Below, piece after piece: positions 10,285-23,459 of a stretch of DNA of 32,136 nucleotides. The notes beneath the pieces were generated by a model, which did not search any database, was not told where the DNA came from, and saw only the letters and a list, made by a program, of their open reading frames with translations. The stretch comes from Candidatus Staskawiczbacteria bacterium (GTDB lineage: Bacteria > Patescibacteriota > Minisyncoccia > Minisyncoccales > Staskawiczbacteraceae), in NCBI GenBank assembly GCA_026395295.1, contig JAPLYZ010000007.1, positions 130,518 through 162,653 on the forward strand, in the 5' to 3' direction. The first letter of the stretch is position 1. Each line of letters begins with the position of its first letter. The position numbers were made by a program, and so were the translations under genes.

Positions 10285-10765
10285 ACGTTTTGAAACTAAT
10301 CTCCCGAGTTTTGGCGTCGATAAATCTGAAATCTATAAAAATTGTGTTTTGGGGCAAAACTTTTTTGATACGCTCGGGCCATTCGACTGCAACAATATTT
10401 TTTGGGTCAGAAATTATTTCATCAAAACCCAGTTCCAGAATGTCTTCTTCGCTTTTTAACCGATAGCAGTCTATATGGTATAAATATTTATATTTTGGGA
10501 CTTGCCCCGTCATTCGACGGGGCACCCTGTCGTATGACAGGGTGAATTTTTTCATTATGACAAAGGTGGGGCTGAGGATTTTTTCTTTGATGCCCAAGCC
10601 CTTGGCGAATCCTTGCAAAAAAGTTGTCTTGCCTCCTCCAAGATTTCCTTGCAAGCCCAAAACCACCGCGGTCTTCTGCGCGGGCATCTTCAAAATTTCC
10701 TCGGCTACTTCTTTACCCAGCTTCTGCGTCTGCTTATAATTGGTCGTAATGTATTTTCTCAACAT
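10277..10765 (-). CDS. tsaE: tRNA threonylcarbamoyladenosine biosynthesis ATPase TsaE with an in-frame insertion
   Basis: Walker A GNLGGGKTT, SPTFVIMKKF, YLYHIDCYRL, VEWPERI. Extra segment TLSYDRVPRRMTGQVPKYK between SPTF.. and LYH.DCYRL. Confidence 0.9.
   Translation of the reverse strand: MLRKYITTNYKQTQKLGKEVAEEILKMPAQKTAVVLGLQGNLGGGKTTFLQGFAKGLGIKEKILSPTFVIMKKFTLSYDRVPRRMTGQVPKYKYLYHIDCYRLKSEEDILELGFDEIISDPKNIVAVEWPERIKKVLPQNTIFIDFRFIDAKTREISFKTSG
10503..10544. repeat. Double palindromic element inserted in frame within tsaE
   Basis: TGCCCCGTC-ATTC-GACGGGGCA (10503-10524) overlapping by 2 nt CACCCTGTC-GTAT-GACAGGGTG (10523-10544); both 9-bp perfect arms with tetraloops. Confidence 0.85.
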
Positions 10766-10816: not shown

Positions 10817-11518
10817 ATGGAAAATCAAGAAGTTAAACAACTTATTGCGGATTCAAAAAATATCTATTTAATACCCTCAGAAGAACCAGAGGCAGTGACT
10901 TCTGCGCTGGCTCTTTTCTATACTTTAAAAGATTTAGCCAAAAATGTAAACCTGGTTATAGAAAATCTGCCTGAAAACCTTAAATTTTTATCGCCGTCTC
11001 TTGATTTTATCTCTTACCCCAAAAATTTCGTGATTTCGGTTCCAAATAATGTGGCTCAGGTCTCGCAAATATACTACGAAAAAAACAACGACGATCTCAA
11101 AATACACTTAACAATAGAAAGCGGGAATATAAAAAAAGAAAATATTTTATTTTATTTTGCAGAATCAAAGCCCGACCTCATAATAACCCTGGGCATAAAA
11201 GATTATCAGAAAGAGCTGTCAGATAAATTAAACTCTTTTGGCTTTTTGCTGGATTCTCCTGTTGTGAATATCGACAATAGCCAAGACAACCAAAAATTTG
11301 GTAAGATAAACCTAATAGAAGATAAATCCCTCTCAGAGATAATCTTTGGCTTAACAGAAAACGTGAAAAAGGAATCGGCCACTTGCCTCTTAACGGGTTT
11401 GGTACTATACACCGGAAACTTCAAAAACAAAATAACAGCCGAAATATTTCAAATATCTTCTGTTTTAATGAAGCTGGGCGCAAGTCTTATGGAAATTAAT
11501 AAAAATATAAAATTTTAA
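10817..11518 (+). CDS. DHH/DHHA1 phosphoesterase-like protein, probably catalytically degenerate
   Basis: 233 aa. Overall DHH-like layout (SEEPEAVTSALALFYTL..; LTGLVLYTGNFKNKITAEIFQISSVLMKLGA) without a DHH motif. 5 nt upstream of the pilB-like gene. Confidence 0.55.
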   Translation: MENQEVKQLIADSKNIYLIPSEEPEAVTSALALFYTLKDLAKNVNLVIENLPENLKFLSPSLDFISYPKNFVISVPNNVAQVSQIYYEKNNDDLKIHLTIESGNIKKENILFYFAESKPDLIITLGIKDYQKELSDKLNSFGFLLDSPVVNIDNSQDNQKFGKINLIEDKSLSEIIFGLTENVKKESATCLLTGLVLYTGNFKNKITAEIFQISSVLMKLGASLMEINKNIKF

Positions 11519-11523
11519 AATTT

Positions 11524-12861
11524 ATGGAAGAAAATAAAAAATTATTAGGCGCGGTAACAATTTCTCCAAAAATTATTGACGAAACAGAGGCCCAAGTAAA
11601 AGACCTGGCTGAATTTAAAAAAAAGATCGAGGAGTATCTTGTCGGGAACGTTACAGAACTTTTAGACATTATCTTATATGGAGCAATAACTCTTAGCGTT
11701 TCCGATATTCACATTGAACCCCAAGAAGACGAGGCAAGGTTAAGAATAAGGTTGGACGGCATCTTACAGGATGTTGTTTTTTTTGACCATGACACATATC
11801 ACCACCTTGTTTCGCGCTTAAAACTCCTCTCGAAATTAAAATTAAATGTCACTGACAAGCCTCAAGACGGAAGATACACAATTGAAGTTAAAGACTCTTT
11901 AATTGAAGTAAGAACATCCAGCTTACCGTCAGAATATGGCGAGTCAATTGTGATGAGAATTTTAAACCCGAAAAATTTGATTTCTTTAGAGGAGCTAGGA
12001 TTGCGGGAAGACCTTTACGAAATTTTCCAGAAAGAAATTACAAAACCAAAAGGAATGATAATTGTTACAGGTCCCACGGGATCCGGAAAAACAACTACCT
12101 TGTACGCTTTTTTGAAAAAAATACAAAATCCGGAAATTAAAATTATAACCATTGAAGACCCAATTGAATATCACCTAAAAGGAGTTTCGCAAACGCAAGT
12201 GGCTCCTGAAAAAGGATATGATTTTTCCGACGGGCTAAGGTCAATTGTGAGACAAGACCCCGATGTTATTTTGGTTGGTGAAATCAGAGACCTTGAAACA
12301 GCTAAAATAGCCCTGCAAGCAGCCTTAACCGGCCACTTGGTATTCTCCACCTTGCACACTAATGACGCGGCAGGGACCATCCCACGGCTTGTAGACCTTG
12401 GTGTAGAACCATCATCAATCGCATCAGGATTGAAAATGGCAGTGGCGCAACTGTTAGTAAGAAAAGTCTGTAAAAAATGTTCAACGCTTGTAAAGCCAAG
12501 TTCAAGCGAACTGGTAGACATAAAAAAGGGTTTGAAAAATTTACCCAAAGCTGTGAAACTTCCCGATCTGGATAAAGTAAAAATCGCCGAGGTAAAAAAA
12601 GAAGGGTGCCAAGCCTGCAACTTTACAGGCTACAGGGGCAGACAGGGATTATTTGAAACATTTCTGGTTGACTCGGAAATGGAAAAATTTATCTTAAAAA
12701 ATCCGCCGGTTTCTTCAATTCGCGAGCTTGCAATAAAAAAAGGAATGGTAACTATGTACCAGTCAGGGTTAATTGACATTGTTTTAGGAATAACAACTTT
12801 TGACGAAGTGGCAAGAGTAGTGGAAAAAGATGAACCTCAACCTGAAATTTCTAATTCCTAA
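11524..12861 (+). CDS. GspE/PilB family type II secretion/type IV pilus ATPase
   Basis: 445 aa. Walker A GPTGSGKTTTLYAF, LRSIVRQDPDVILVGEIRDLETA, CKKC...CQACNFTGYRGR zinc motif. Confidence 0.93.
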   Translation: MEENKKLLGAVTISPKIIDETEAQVKDLAEFKKKIEEYLVGNVTELLDIILYGAITLSVSDIHIEPQEDEARLRIRLDGILQDVVFFDHDTYHHLVSRLKLLSKLKLNVTDKPQDGRYTIEVKDSLIEVRTSSLPSEYGESIVMRILNPKNLISLEELGLREDLYEIFQKEITKPKGMIIVTGPTGSGKTTTLYAFLKKIQNPEIKIITIEDPIEYHLKGVSQTQVAPEKGYDFSDGLRSIVRQDPDVILVGEIRDLETAKIALQAALTGHLVFSTLHTNDAAGTIPRLVDLGVEPSSIASGLKMAVAQLLVRKVCKKCSTLVKPSSSELVDIKKGLKNLPKAVKLPDLDKVKIAEVKKEGCQACNFTGYRGRQGLFETFLVDSEMEKFILKNPPVSSIRELAIKKGMVTMYQSGLIDIVLGITTFDEVARVVEKDEPQPEISNS

Positions 12862-12872: not shown

Positions 12873-12897
12873 AAAAACGATTAAAATTTTACAAAAA

Positions 12898-13032
12898 AAG
12901 CGGCTCTAGAGTTGGAGGTAGTCTTATGTCTGGGACATAAATAAAGATTTGCCTGAGGAATAATCGAGCCGGAGCAAGATTATCCGAAGCTGAGGCAAGT
13001 CCAAGTAAATACCTCCAACTCTAGAGCCGCTT
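12898..13032. other. 135-bp structured intergenic element (candidate ncRNA or MITE-like element)
   Basis: Perfect 23-bp inverted repeat AAGCGGCTCTAGAGTTGGAGGTA (12898-12920) / TACCTCCAACTCTAGAGCCGCTT (13010-13032). Enclosed hairpins: TTATGTC-TGG-GACATAA (12924-12940), and GATTTGCCT (12946-12954) pairing with AGGCAAGTC (12993-13001) capped by ATAATC/GATTAT. Confidence 0.8.
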
Positions 13033-13098
13033 CACTATTTAGTACGTAAAAAGGCAGTATGCTATCAATATCTTCAAGCATATCACCTTTCAAACCAT

Positions 13099-14103
13099 AT
13101 GTCAAGCCCTACACCCAAAAATGAGCAAGAAGTGCTGGACTCGGCTTTAAGGCCGAGTTCTTGGCATGATTATGTTGGGCAGGACAAAATAAAGGAAAAC
13201 ATACGAATAATTATCACTGCTGCCAAACAAAGAAGCCAAAGTCCCGACCATTTACTGTTTTATGGCAACTCGGGTTTGGGAAAAACCACCCTAGCTTATC
13301 TTGTGGCAAGCGAAATGGGAAAAAAGATAAGGTCAACGTCTGGTCCGGCTTTGGAAAGAGCCGGAGATTTGGCGGCAATTTTAACAAACTTGGCAGAAGG
13401 AGATGTTTTGTTTTTAGACGAAATCCACCGCATCAATAAAACCATTGAAGAATATTTGTATCCTGCCATGGAGGATTATAAATTGAACTTGGTTTTGGGA
13501 AAGGGCCCCATGGCGCGAACAATGGAATTAAAACTGCCAAAGTTCACCTTAATTGGAGCCACAACCAGGCCAGGACTTTTGTCAGCTCCTTTAAGAAACC
13601 GTTTTGGCGCCACTTTCCAGCTTAATTTTTACAGCCACAAAGATATTGAAAAAATAATTGAGAGGTCAGGCCGTCTTTTGAAAATAAAAATTGAACCTGA
13701 AGCAATTGAAATTATTGCCAAGCGTTCAAGATTTACACCAAGGGTGGCAAACCGGCTTATAAAAAGGGTGAGAGATTTTGCCCAAGTCCAAAATTCGCCA
13801 ATTATCACAAGGGAGATTGCAGAAAAATCATTGGATTCTTTAGAGGTGGATTTAATGGGTTTAGAACCAAGCGACCGAAGCATTTTGCGGGCTTTAATTG
13901 AAAAATTTGGCGGAGGGCCGGTTGGCTTGCAATCTTTGTCAGCTGCGGCAATGGAAGAAGAAGACACGATTTTAGACATTTACGAGCCGTACTTAATGCA
14001 ATGTGGTTTACTTGAGCGCACCCCCAAAGGCAGAGTCGCCACCAACTTGGCCTACGAACACTTAAATTTAAAACACCTCAAAAAACAAAGCAATCTATTC
14101 TAA
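13099..14103 (+). CDS. ruvB: Holliday junction branch migration ATPase RuvB
   Basis: RPSSWHDYVGQDKIKENI, GNSGLGKTTLA, LFLDEIHRINKTIEEYLYPAMED, GATTRPGLLSAPLRNRFG. Confidence 0.96.
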   Translation: MSSPTPKNEQEVLDSALRPSSWHDYVGQDKIKENIRIIITAAKQRSQSPDHLLFYGNSGLGKTTLAYLVASEMGKKIRSTSGPALERAGDLAAILTNLAEGDVLFLDEIHRINKTIEEYLYPAMEDYKLNLVLGKGPMARTMELKLPKFTLIGATTRPGLLSAPLRNRFGATFQLNFYSHKDIEKIIERSGRLLKIKIEPEAIEIIAKRSRFTPRVANRLIKRVRDFAQVQNSPIITREIAEKSLDSLEVDLMGLEPSDRSILRALIEKFGGGPVGLQSLSAAAMEEEDTILDIYEPYLMQCGLLERTPKGRVATNLAYEHLNLKHLKKQSNLF

Positions 14104-18648: not shown

Positions 18649-19710
18649 ATGAAAAAGATTTTACTGTTATTTTCTTTGTTTGTTTTTTTGTGCTTTCCCG
18701 TAGCCGTGGTTTTTGCAGCGGCGCAGGTGAACATAAACACTGCCTCACTGGCTCAATTGGATGAAATAACAGGAGTGGGGCCGGCAACTGCGCAAAAAAT
18801 AATAGATGCTCGGCCATTTTCTTCGGTTGATGATTTACTGAGAGTAAAAGGAATCGGACCAAAAACCTTGCAAAAAATAAAAGACCAAGGGTTAGCCTGC
18901 GTAAATTGTGCCGCCTCCGCCGAGGCTACGGCGAGCCAAGCAAACTTAACGGTTATTCAGACCCAGACTCCAGCACCCACTCCAACCCCAACACCAAAGC
19001 CAACACCAACGCCAACGCCCGACCTGACTCAAACCCAAACACCTTTGTTAACGCCAGCTCCAGTTATTGTTTATCCTTCTGGAGTATTTATAAATGAACT
19101 TCTCCCCAGCCCTAAGGGCGCCGATGAAACCGACGAATGGATTGAACTGTATAATTCCAATAGCTTTGATGTTGATTTGTCGGGCTGGAAAATGCAAGAC
19201 ACTGCTGGCACCGTAACCACTTTCACAATCAACCCTTCGACGGGCTCAGGGCAGGCAAAAATTTTAGCTAACAGCTTCTTGATTTTTAAAAGGCCAGACA
19301 CGAAAATAATGTTGAACAACGATGAGGACGGTTTAAACCTGCTTACGCCCGACTCGAAAATTGTTGACTCTGTAAGTTTTTCCAAGGCTCCCACTGGCCA
19401 ATCTTATAACAGAAATGCCTCCGGGTGGCATTGGAGCCCGACATTAACTCCCGGAACCGTAAACATTATTACAGCTGCGCAAACAGCGACAATTGCCAAA
19501 GCCTTGCCAAAGGCGAAAAGTTCTGCTAAAAATAGTGTAGCAACTCAAGGATTAGCAGATTTAAGCCAAATGGCAAACCCCGTTAGAAACGAAATTTCTA
19601 ACGGGGCAAGTCCTTGGTTTATGTTTTTTACAGTTTTAGCAATAACCATAATTTTGGCAATAATAGTATTAATTATTAAAATTAAATTTAAAAATTATGA
19701 GCGGACATAG
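18649..19710 (+). CDS. ComEA-like helix-hairpin-helix protein fused to lamin-tail domain, C-terminal TM
   Basis: Signal peptide; VNINTASLAQLDEITGVGPATAQKIIDARPF...LLRVKGIGPKTLQKI (HhH); Pro/Thr linker; VFINELLPSPKGADETDEWIELYNSNSFDVDLSGWKMQD (LTD); TM WFMFFTVLAITIILAIIVLII. Confidence 0.88.
   Translation: MKKILLLFSLFVFLCFPVAVVFAAAQVNINTASLAQLDEITGVGPATAQKIIDARPFSSVDDLLRVKGIGPKTLQKIKDQGLACVNCAASAEATASQANLTVIQTQTPAPTPTPTPKPTPTPTPDLTQTQTPLLTPAPVIVYPSGVFINELLPSPKGADETDEWIELYNSNSFDVDLSGWKMQDTAGTVTTFTINPSTGSGQAKILANSFLIFKRPDTKIMLNNDEDGLNLLTPDSKIVDSVSFSKAPTGQSYNRNASGWHWSPTLTPGTVNIITAAQTATIAKALPKAKSSAKNSVATQGLADLSQMANPVRNEISNGASPWFMFFTVLAITIILAIIVLIIKIKFKNYERT
19233..19256. repeat. In-frame short interspersed repeat in the comEA-like gene
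   Basis: CCCTTCGACGGGCTCAGGGCAGGC, encoding NPSTGSGQA (opposite strand ACPEPVEG), in a loop of the LTD domain. Confidence 0.65.
19578..19613. repeat. In-frame palindromic element in the comEA-like gene
   Basis: CCCCGTTAGAAA-CGAAA-TTTCTAACGGGG (12-bp arms) followed by CAAGTCC; shares GGGGCAAGTCC with the tsaE element. Confidence 0.85.
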
Positions 19711-21323: not shown

Positions 21324-23459
21324 ATGAAACTTATAAACAAAAAAAAATTATTCAATATTATAAAATATCTCTTGTTTTTGTTCTTGGGAGGGTGTCTGTT
21401 GATTCTGGCGCTGTTTATTTACTATACATGGGACTTGCCTCAGCCTGAAAAATTTACGGAAACTCCTTTTATACAATCTACTAAAATTTATGACAGCACG
21501 GGCAAGGTTCTTTTATATGATATATATGGCGAAGAGAAAAGGGAAATTGTTTCTTTTGATAAAATTTCAGACAACTTAAAACATGCCGTCGTCTCGTCGG
21601 AGGACTCCAGGTTTTATCAGCATGGCGGATTAGATTTTGAGGGAATTCTGAGAGCAGTTTGGGTGGACATAACATCCCAGTCAAAAAGCCAAGGCGGATC
21701 CACAATAACTCAGCAATTAATAAGATCTGTTTATTTAACAAACCAAAAGAGCGTATCCAGAAAAATTAAGGAGATAGTTTTGAGCATAGAGTTAGAAAAC
21801 AAATATTCCAAGGATCAAATTTTTGATTGGTATCTGAACAAAATTCCTTTTGGGGAAAATGCCTATGGAGCCGAAGCTGCAAGCCAAGCATATTTTAATA
21901 AGCCCTCTTCTGATCTTTCTTTGCCTGAGGCTGCAGTCTTAACAGCTTTAATTCCGGCTCCAAGCTATTTTTCTCCTTATGGATCAAACAAGGCCGAGCT
22001 ACTCCAAAGAAAAGATATTGTTCTGGAAAAAATGCAAAAGCAGGGATATATTACAGACACGCAATTGGCGGATGCCAAAAAGGAAAAAATAAACTTTGCC
22101 AAGCCGGCATCTTCTATTAAGGCGCCAGATTTTGTAATGTATGTTAAAAAATATCTGGAAGACAAATACGGTAGCGACTATCTGAAAGAAAAAGGGTTAA
22201 GAGTTTATACCACCTTGAACTGGGACCTTCAACAATATACTGAACAGGTAATAAAAGACGCGGATAAAACAAATATCAGCAAAAACGCAAACAATGCGGC
22301 GATGGTAGTTTTAGATCCTAAAACAGGAAAAATTTTGGCGCTGGTAGGATCAAAAGATTATTTTGCCACTTCTTATCCTGTTGGATGCGACGAGAGCACA
22401 ACGAGAAATTGTTTATTTGACCCAAAATACGATGTAGCAACAATGGGGCAAAGACAGCCAGGTTCTTCTTTTAAGCCAATAGTGTATGCGACGGCGTTTA
22501 AAAAAGGTTTCACTCCCAATACTGTTCTATGGGATGTGAAAACTGAATTTAATCCTAATTGCAATCCAAATGGTAATGATATTACAGACATATATGGAAT
22601 AGACTGCTACCACCCTCAGGATTATGATGGAAAAAACAGGGGAGCCGTAACCTTGCGCACCGCTCTAGATTGCTCTCTGAACATACCCGCTGTTAAGGTT
22701 CTTTATCTGACGGGAATTGCCGATTCTCTCCAAACAGCAAGGGATTTGGGAATTACAACTCTTACCGACACCAACAATTACGGATTGTCTTTGGTTTTAG
22801 GAGGGGGTGACGTCAATTTGCTGGAAATGACCTCTGCTTACGGGGTTTTCGCTGCAGAAGGAAACTATATCCCACCAATAAGTATTTTAAAAATTACCGA
22901 TGCCGATGGAAACATTATTGAGCAAGACCAAAAACAGCCAACAAAGGTTTTGGACACTCAGGTGGCGCGACAAGTCAATAATGTTTTGTCTGACAACAAT
23001 GCAAGGTCTCCTATTTTTGGCTCTCACTCTCCGCTATACGTTCCAGGCTACCAAGTGGCTGCTAAAACTGGCACTACACAAAATTTTGTTGACGGCTGGA
23101 CTCTCGGCTACACGCCTTTTGTCGTTGTTGGCGTGTGGACAGGGAATAACAACAACTCCCCGACGAATGACGAGGGCGTGGGCATCGCGGCTCCTATGTG
23201 GAATAAAGTTATGACAAAGATTGCATCATCAAATCCAATTGAAAATTTCACCCCGCCAGATCCAATTACTAATAGAAACCCCATATTACTAGGGCAACTT
23301 CCAACGGGCGACAACCACACTATTTTATATTATGTTGATAAAAATAATCCTCTGGGTTCTCAGCCACAAGATCCGACAATCGATACTCAATACTTCTCTT
23401 GGCAGGCGGGAATAAATAATTGGATATCTTCTGGCGGCGGGACCAATATTTATCCTTAA
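21324..23459 (+). CDS. Class A penicillin-binding protein (transglycosylase/transpeptidase)
   Basis: 711 aa. TM; AVVSSEDSRFYQHGGLDFEGILRA, GGSTITQQLIRSVYL, RQPGSSFKPIVYA, AAKTGTTQNFVDGW. Confidence 0.95.
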   Translation: MKLINKKKLFNIIKYLLFLFLGGCLLILALFIYYTWDLPQPEKFTETPFIQSTKIYDSTGKVLLYDIYGEEKREIVSFDKISDNLKHAVVSSEDSRFYQHGGLDFEGILRAVWVDITSQSKSQGGSTITQQLIRSVYLTNQKSVSRKIKEIVLSIELENKYSKDQIFDWYLNKIPFGENAYGAEAASQAYFNKPSSDLSLPEAAVLTALIPAPSYFSPYGSNKAELLQRKDIVLEKMQKQGYITDTQLADAKKEKINFAKPASSIKAPDFVMYVKKYLEDKYGSDYLKEKGLRVYTTLNWDLQQYTEQVIKDADKTNISKNANNAAMVVLDPKTGKILALVGSKDYFATSYPVGCDESTTRNCLFDPKYDVATMGQRQPGSSFKPIVYATAFKKGFTPNTVLWDVKTEFNPNCNPNGNDITDIYGIDCYHPQDYDGKNRGAVTLRTALDCSLNIPAVKVLYLTGIADSLQTARDLGITTLTDTNNYGLSLVLGGGDVNLLEMTSAYGVFAAEGNYIPPISILKITDADGNIIEQDQKQPTKVLDTQVARQVNNVLSDNNARSPIFGSHSPLYVPGYQVAAKTGTTQNFVDGWTLGYTPFVVVGVWTGNNNNSPTNDEGVGIAAPMWNKVMTKIASSNPIENFTPPDPITNRNPILLGQLPTGDNHTILYYVDKNNPLGSQPQDPTIDTQYFSWQAGINNWISSGGGTNIYP

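Follow-up and report, generated by a model that had tools for sequence, protein, structure and literature searches.

Between a pilB-like gene and ruvB in the window, the 32,136-nucleotide stretch of a Candidatus Staskawiczbacteria contig analysed here, lies a 135-bp element bounded by a perfect inverted repeat. Is it a structured RNA in its own right, a leader or attenuator of ruvB, or a palindromic mobile element, and from which strand is it read? The original prediction had left the three interpretations side by side and had worked on the plus strand; only the structured RNA has held. The terminal repeat was confirmed as perfectly reverse-complementary over 23 bp, and the Y-shaped fold, with a 23-bp closing stem, a side hairpin and a long arm, is real and as had been described (coordinates in Table 1). 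A simple estimate from base statistics puts the number of such repeats (spacer of at most 100 nt) expected by chance in 32 kb at about 6e-8. The plus strand of the element folds at -69.1 kcal/mol (z = -10.2; 0 of 200 shuffles were equally low) and the minus strand at -71.2 kcal/mol over 163 nt (z = -8.9). Read from the minus strand, the element shows wobble pairs and UNCG-type loops. A search of its own genome (0.9 Mb in 20 contigs, 97.6% complete) found the element once.

A DNA search of relatives returned a single homolog for almost every genome of its genus and family. With covariance model R1, built from alignment A1 (33 same-genus or same-family sequences), the RNA was found in 133 of 247 genomes of the order, with R2, built from order-level sequences, in 127 of 289 sampled genomes of the class (about 44%), and with the minus-strand model R3 in 126 of these 289, all genome counts being lower bounds because few candidates per genome were scored. 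Such a search of relatives had been suggested along with the original prediction, and it did recover homologs with conserved, compensated pairing, one per genome; dispersed copies at unrelated loci, the alternative outcome named there, were not found. The RNA is nearly always single copy, and the second match seen in some genomes is the same place on the other strand. The core motif is carried by Staskawiczbacteria, Yanofskybacteria, Nealsonbacteria, Portnoybacteria, Azambacteria, Harrisonbacteria and Colwellbacteria, the Harrisonbacteria and Colwellbacteria loci (L202 and L218) being confirmed by R3. In a sample of the phylum (n = 382), one family alone, f169, gave clear matches beyond the class; its homolog is convincing and lies near ruvB in one locus, with no clear promoter. 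Other matches in the phylum were marginal. Two metagenome-assembled genomes named Alistipes (L191, L210) match the core DNA pattern, but not R3, and were taken as chance or as misbinned sequence.

The pairing is upheld by substitution. In alignment A4 (60 minus-strand sequences at the order level), compensatory double changes occur in 34 of the 39 consensus pairs, 94.0% of cells are paired (79.3% in shuffles), and covariation scores 0.603, compared with 0.295 for shuffled alignments and at most 0.196 for slid structures. Single-copy homologs with such changes bear out the structured non-coding RNA of the original prediction. The long arm P3 is the most conserved part of the RNA. It is built from an outer stem, an asymmetric internal loop (YYYAG...GG opposite CCUC), an apical stem and a UNCG-type tetraloop, which is UCCG in the window; loops of the UNCG type are the commonest apical loops on the minus strand. 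Many members of the class outside the order are longer, and the folds of several of them show an additional hairpin 5' of the junction. One same-family locus (L036, contig C7 of genome G026) carries a self-complementary insert of about 216 nt in the tip of the long arm, the remainder of the RNA being intact. Two further ideas about the fold were discarded: GGAGG/CCUCC in P1 as an SD/anti-SD device, as the class-level stems do not keep these sequences, and a k-turn or UAA/GAN motif in P3, which applies to the wrong (plus) strand only.

The strand was decided by several features. In the flanks of order-level homologs, TTGTCAAG recurs downstream of the element on the plus side; read on the minus strand, it is a -35 box with a TATAAT-like box 17 nt further on, pointing into the element. 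The exact pattern TTGACA-N16-18-TAnnnT directed into the RNA was present on the minus strand in 111 of 128 loci (26 of 33 in the same family, 54 of 58 in the order and 31 of 37 in the class), compared with a single order-level locus, and none in the same family or the class, on the plus strand; in shuffled sequence about 0.4 would be expected in all. The plus-strand reading of the original prediction is overturned by this count. In 100 of 120 sequences the minus strand also folds lower (means of -60.8 kcal/mol for the minus and -52.1 kcal/mol for the plus strand), and the structure, read as minus, has 228 G-U as against 49 A-C cells, a count that rests on a structure predicted on the minus strand and thus favours that strand somewhat. 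On the minus strand, U residues are enriched after P1 in same-family and order-level loci, and weakly in the rest of the class. In the window a run of seven T follows the closing stem on this strand, so that the element, contrary to what had been noted, is U-tailed. Judged by these sequence features, the RNA is read from the minus strand, not the plus strand. The plus-strand reading, on which models R1 and R2 were based, was abandoned on the strength of the promoter, energy and wobble tests; these models recover the same loci because both strands fold.

Transcription is predicted to start near 13070, as placed from the two promoter boxes in Table 1; the -10 box in the window, TATGCT, matches the consensus at only four of six positions. 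A possible proximal promoter, seen in some same-genus loci only, would have transcription begin at the closing stem itself. In most loci of the genus, 22-71 nt separate the best promoter from the stem, as compared with 3-20 nt in most other loci of the order.

Table 1. Features of the RNA locus and its neighbours (positions in the window)
Feature	Position	Strand	Basis or remark
Proposed RNA gene	12893..13070	-	Conserved promoter, covariation, U-run; transcript ends predicted
Structured part of the RNA gene	12898-13032	-	
-35 box TTGACA	13100..13105	-	Inside the first codons of ruvB (ATGTCAAGC)
-10 box TATGCT	13077..13082	-	17 nt from the -35 box
Possible second, proximal promoter TTGATA-N18-TACTAA	13039..13068	-	Sequence; weaker
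Closing stem P1, 5' arm on the RNA strand	13010..13032	-	Compensatory changes in 17/17 P1 pairs (order-level alignment)
Closing stem P1, 3' arm on the RNA strand	12898..12920	-	Reverse complement, covariation
Long arm P3	12946..13001	-	Most conserved part; sequence conservation and covariation
Hairpin P2, 3' side of the junction	12924..12940	-	Minus-strand fold; length varies among homologs
Seven-U run after P1, predicted intrinsic terminator of the RNA gene	12893..12899	-	
pilB/GspE-type ATPase (T2SSE)	11524..12861	+	Pfam PF00437; convergent with the RNA
ruvB	13099..14103	+	Pfam PF05496/PF17864/PF05491; divergent from the RNA

The locus thus combines a promoter of its own, directed into a structured region, with a covarying structure and a stem followed by a U-run, and from the minus-strand promoter, the fold energy, the G-U excess and the stem with its U-run we infer an autonomous, intrinsically terminated small RNA gene. 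Its nature as an RNA gene appears close to certain, and strand, promoter, fold, covariation, single copy and class-wide conservation are established at the level of sequence comparison. According to our proposal, RNA polymerase would start at a near-consensus sigma70-type promoter whose -35 box overlaps the start codon of ruvB, head away from ruvB through the structured core of about 135 nt, and stop at the closing stem and U-run, just short of where the convergent pilB gene ends. The promoter suggests abundant expression. In the folded transcript, a long closing stem would lead to a junction that bears a side hairpin and a long arm, the latter with an internal loop and a UNCG-type cap; the RNA would act in trans via a protein bound to the conserved arm. 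This mode is suggested because the RNA is nearly all paired, with its conserved unpaired bases in the arm, and because it has neither an open seed region nor a fixed target gene on its own strand; we give the trans-acting, protein-bound mode about an even chance. Taken whole, an autonomous, trans-acting and protein-bound small RNA encoded on the minus strand is in our view very probably the best account of the locus.

Several observations count against this account: the proximity of all 134 loci to pilB, which may point to a cis role on that gene; the fact that a plus-strand pilB transcript would fold too; and, within the genus, the greater distance of the best promoter from the stem, together with the imperfect -10 box in the window. 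The first leads to the strongest alternative, which we regard as rather unlikely, namely a cis-acting convergent or antisense RNA controlling pilB, either by pairing of the minus-strand transcript with read-through pilB mRNA or by transcriptional interference; levels of the type IV pilus ATPase would then be tied to the RNA. It is favoured by the arrangement, as pilB is upstream in 134 of 134 loci examined, usually at most 60 nt away and convergent with the RNA. However, in seven loci (L014, L028, L030, L035, L036, L159 and L161) the spacing is 0.4-1.5 kb, and an antisense RNA would need complementarity only, which leaves the compensatory changes, the internal loop and the tetraloop unexplained. 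The pilB gene itself is preceded in the window by a gene (10817-11515) for a 233-aa protein that has no Pfam match and is kept beside pilB in many relatives.

With regard to known families, the locus had no match on either strand to any of 4227 Rfam families (E<=5), and we found no description of the RNA in the open-licence papers searched; it is a previously uncatalogued small RNA gene. 6S RNA, SRP RNA and RNase P RNA are all unlikely as its identity. 6S RNA (RF00013) resembles it in being a single-copy RNA with a strong promoter, a long closing stem, a terminal arm and an open junction with a hairpin on the 3' side. The RNA described here is shorter, at 125-165 nt, and has its conserved sequence in the distal arm, unlike 6S RNA, in which conservation does not lie there. 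RF00013 had no match in the host genome of the window and none at the RNA's locus in 39 genomes (E<=10). Sub-threshold matches lie elsewhere in two genomes that carry the RNA (G284 contig C21, E 1.8e-5; G060 contig C17, E 1.8e-4). Identity with 6S RNA was therefore rejected. A functional analogue of 6S RNA, which would mimic melted promoter DNA and bind RNA polymerase, seems improbable to us: the similar minus-strand layout, the strong promoter, the single copy and a host genome devoid of an RF00013 match would suit it, but the lack of a match at the locus, the sub-threshold matches elsewhere in two carriers and the conservation of the distal arm speak against it. The two sub-threshold matches themselves, L222:1501-1653 (G284 C21:26908-27060), with a TTGACA/TATAAT promoter and a long closing stem, and G060 C17:6834-6953, are judging by sequence probable unannotated 6S RNAs of Paceibacteria.

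SRP RNA, or 4.5S RNA (RF00169), is likewise a single-copy structured RNA of the housekeeping type. The conserved SRP apical motif is not seen in the RNA described here. Neither RF00169 nor Ffh (TIGR00959) has a match in the host genome of the window, and a replacement of SRP RNA was rejected because the Ffh family match is missing there. RF00169 matched in only one of 100 genomes of the order; the scarcity of SRP RNA, together with the missing Ffh match, agrees with the SRP loss already published for Parcubacteria (PMC4508563). RNase P RNA (RF00010) is another structured housekeeping RNA, diverged in bacteria of the candidate phyla radiation (CPR) yet recognisable there with the RF00010 structure (PMC8172020). 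The RNA described here is far smaller, and the Rfam scans gave no RF00010 match at the locus. In kind, though not as a family, it is closest to orphan structured small RNA classes from comparative genomics, which are found by covariation and have their own promoter and terminator; it differs from them in matching no Rfam family and in being lineage-wide in Paceibacteria.

The third alternative, a cis element on the plus strand that would act as a leader or attenuator of ruvB or as a 3'UTR structure or terminator of pilB, we regard as very improbable. The plus strand does fold strongly, and pilB or ruvB is adjacent and co-directional in most loci: ruvB is the next gene in 34 of 34 same-family loci, in at most 33 of 60 other loci of the order and in 36 of 40 class loci. 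However, ruvB was not found downstream of the RNA in at least 27 of the 60 other order loci, two or three of which are on contigs too short for a decision. Where it is missing, its place is taken by a lamin-tail/ComEA-like gene with yebC and ruvC behind it, or by a gene on the opposite strand. Directly downstream on the plus strand, no gene of the same strand follows in six loci (L155, L161, L168, L071, L074 and L081), and L159, L161 and L166 have an inverted gene between pilB and the RNA; in L161 both flanking genes are opposite in strand to pilB, one of them separating pilB from the RNA. A plus-strand operon can therefore not be the general source of the RNA. Its position is independent of ruvB, and it is thus no ruvB leader; the leader or attenuator of the original prediction fails on this ground and because the promoter lies on the other strand and points away from ruvB. 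A plus-strand element is further contradicted by fold energy and wobble counts, and a pilB 3'UTR was rejected on strand and synteny.

A non-autonomous, MITE-like palindromic mobile element, the remaining interpretation of the original prediction, is hardly credible despite the perfect terminal inverted repeat, since the RNA occurs once per genome at an orthologous place beside pilB across the class, its stem is upheld by compensatory changes, and no relative was found in phage or plasmid records. The 9-mer GGCAAGTCC, by which the element had been linked to other palindromic elements of the window, is indeed present there in four exact copies (10498-10506, 12994-13002, 19605-19613 and 21431-21439); with at most one mismatch it has 11 matches in the window, a number reached in 2 of 100 shuffles. 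The copy inside the element sits in covarying stem positions and is therefore treated as coincidence; the repeated copies are probably unrelated to the RNA.

The Parcubacteria (class Paceibacteria) rank among the largest uncultured bacterial groups, and their genomes, often below 1 Mb, are without SRP. A single-copy RNA gene kept class-wide with a near-perfect promoter probably matters to these bacteria, and it offers a concrete way into the RNA biology of the CPR. Tentatively, and at somewhat less than an even chance, we propose that this class-wide RNA of Paceibacteria, strongly transcribed from a consensus promoter, has a function served by no known RNA family; if true, it might, for example, provide the RNA core for a ribonucleoprotein that is specific to the lineage, in cells without SRP. 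The -35 box also constrains the start codon of ruvB in the window, where the first codons, ATG TCA AGC (Met-Ser-Ser, 13099-13107), coincide with it. Many RuvB proteins of the same family start with MSS, and the constraint exerted by the promoter may therefore shape the N-terminus of RuvB.
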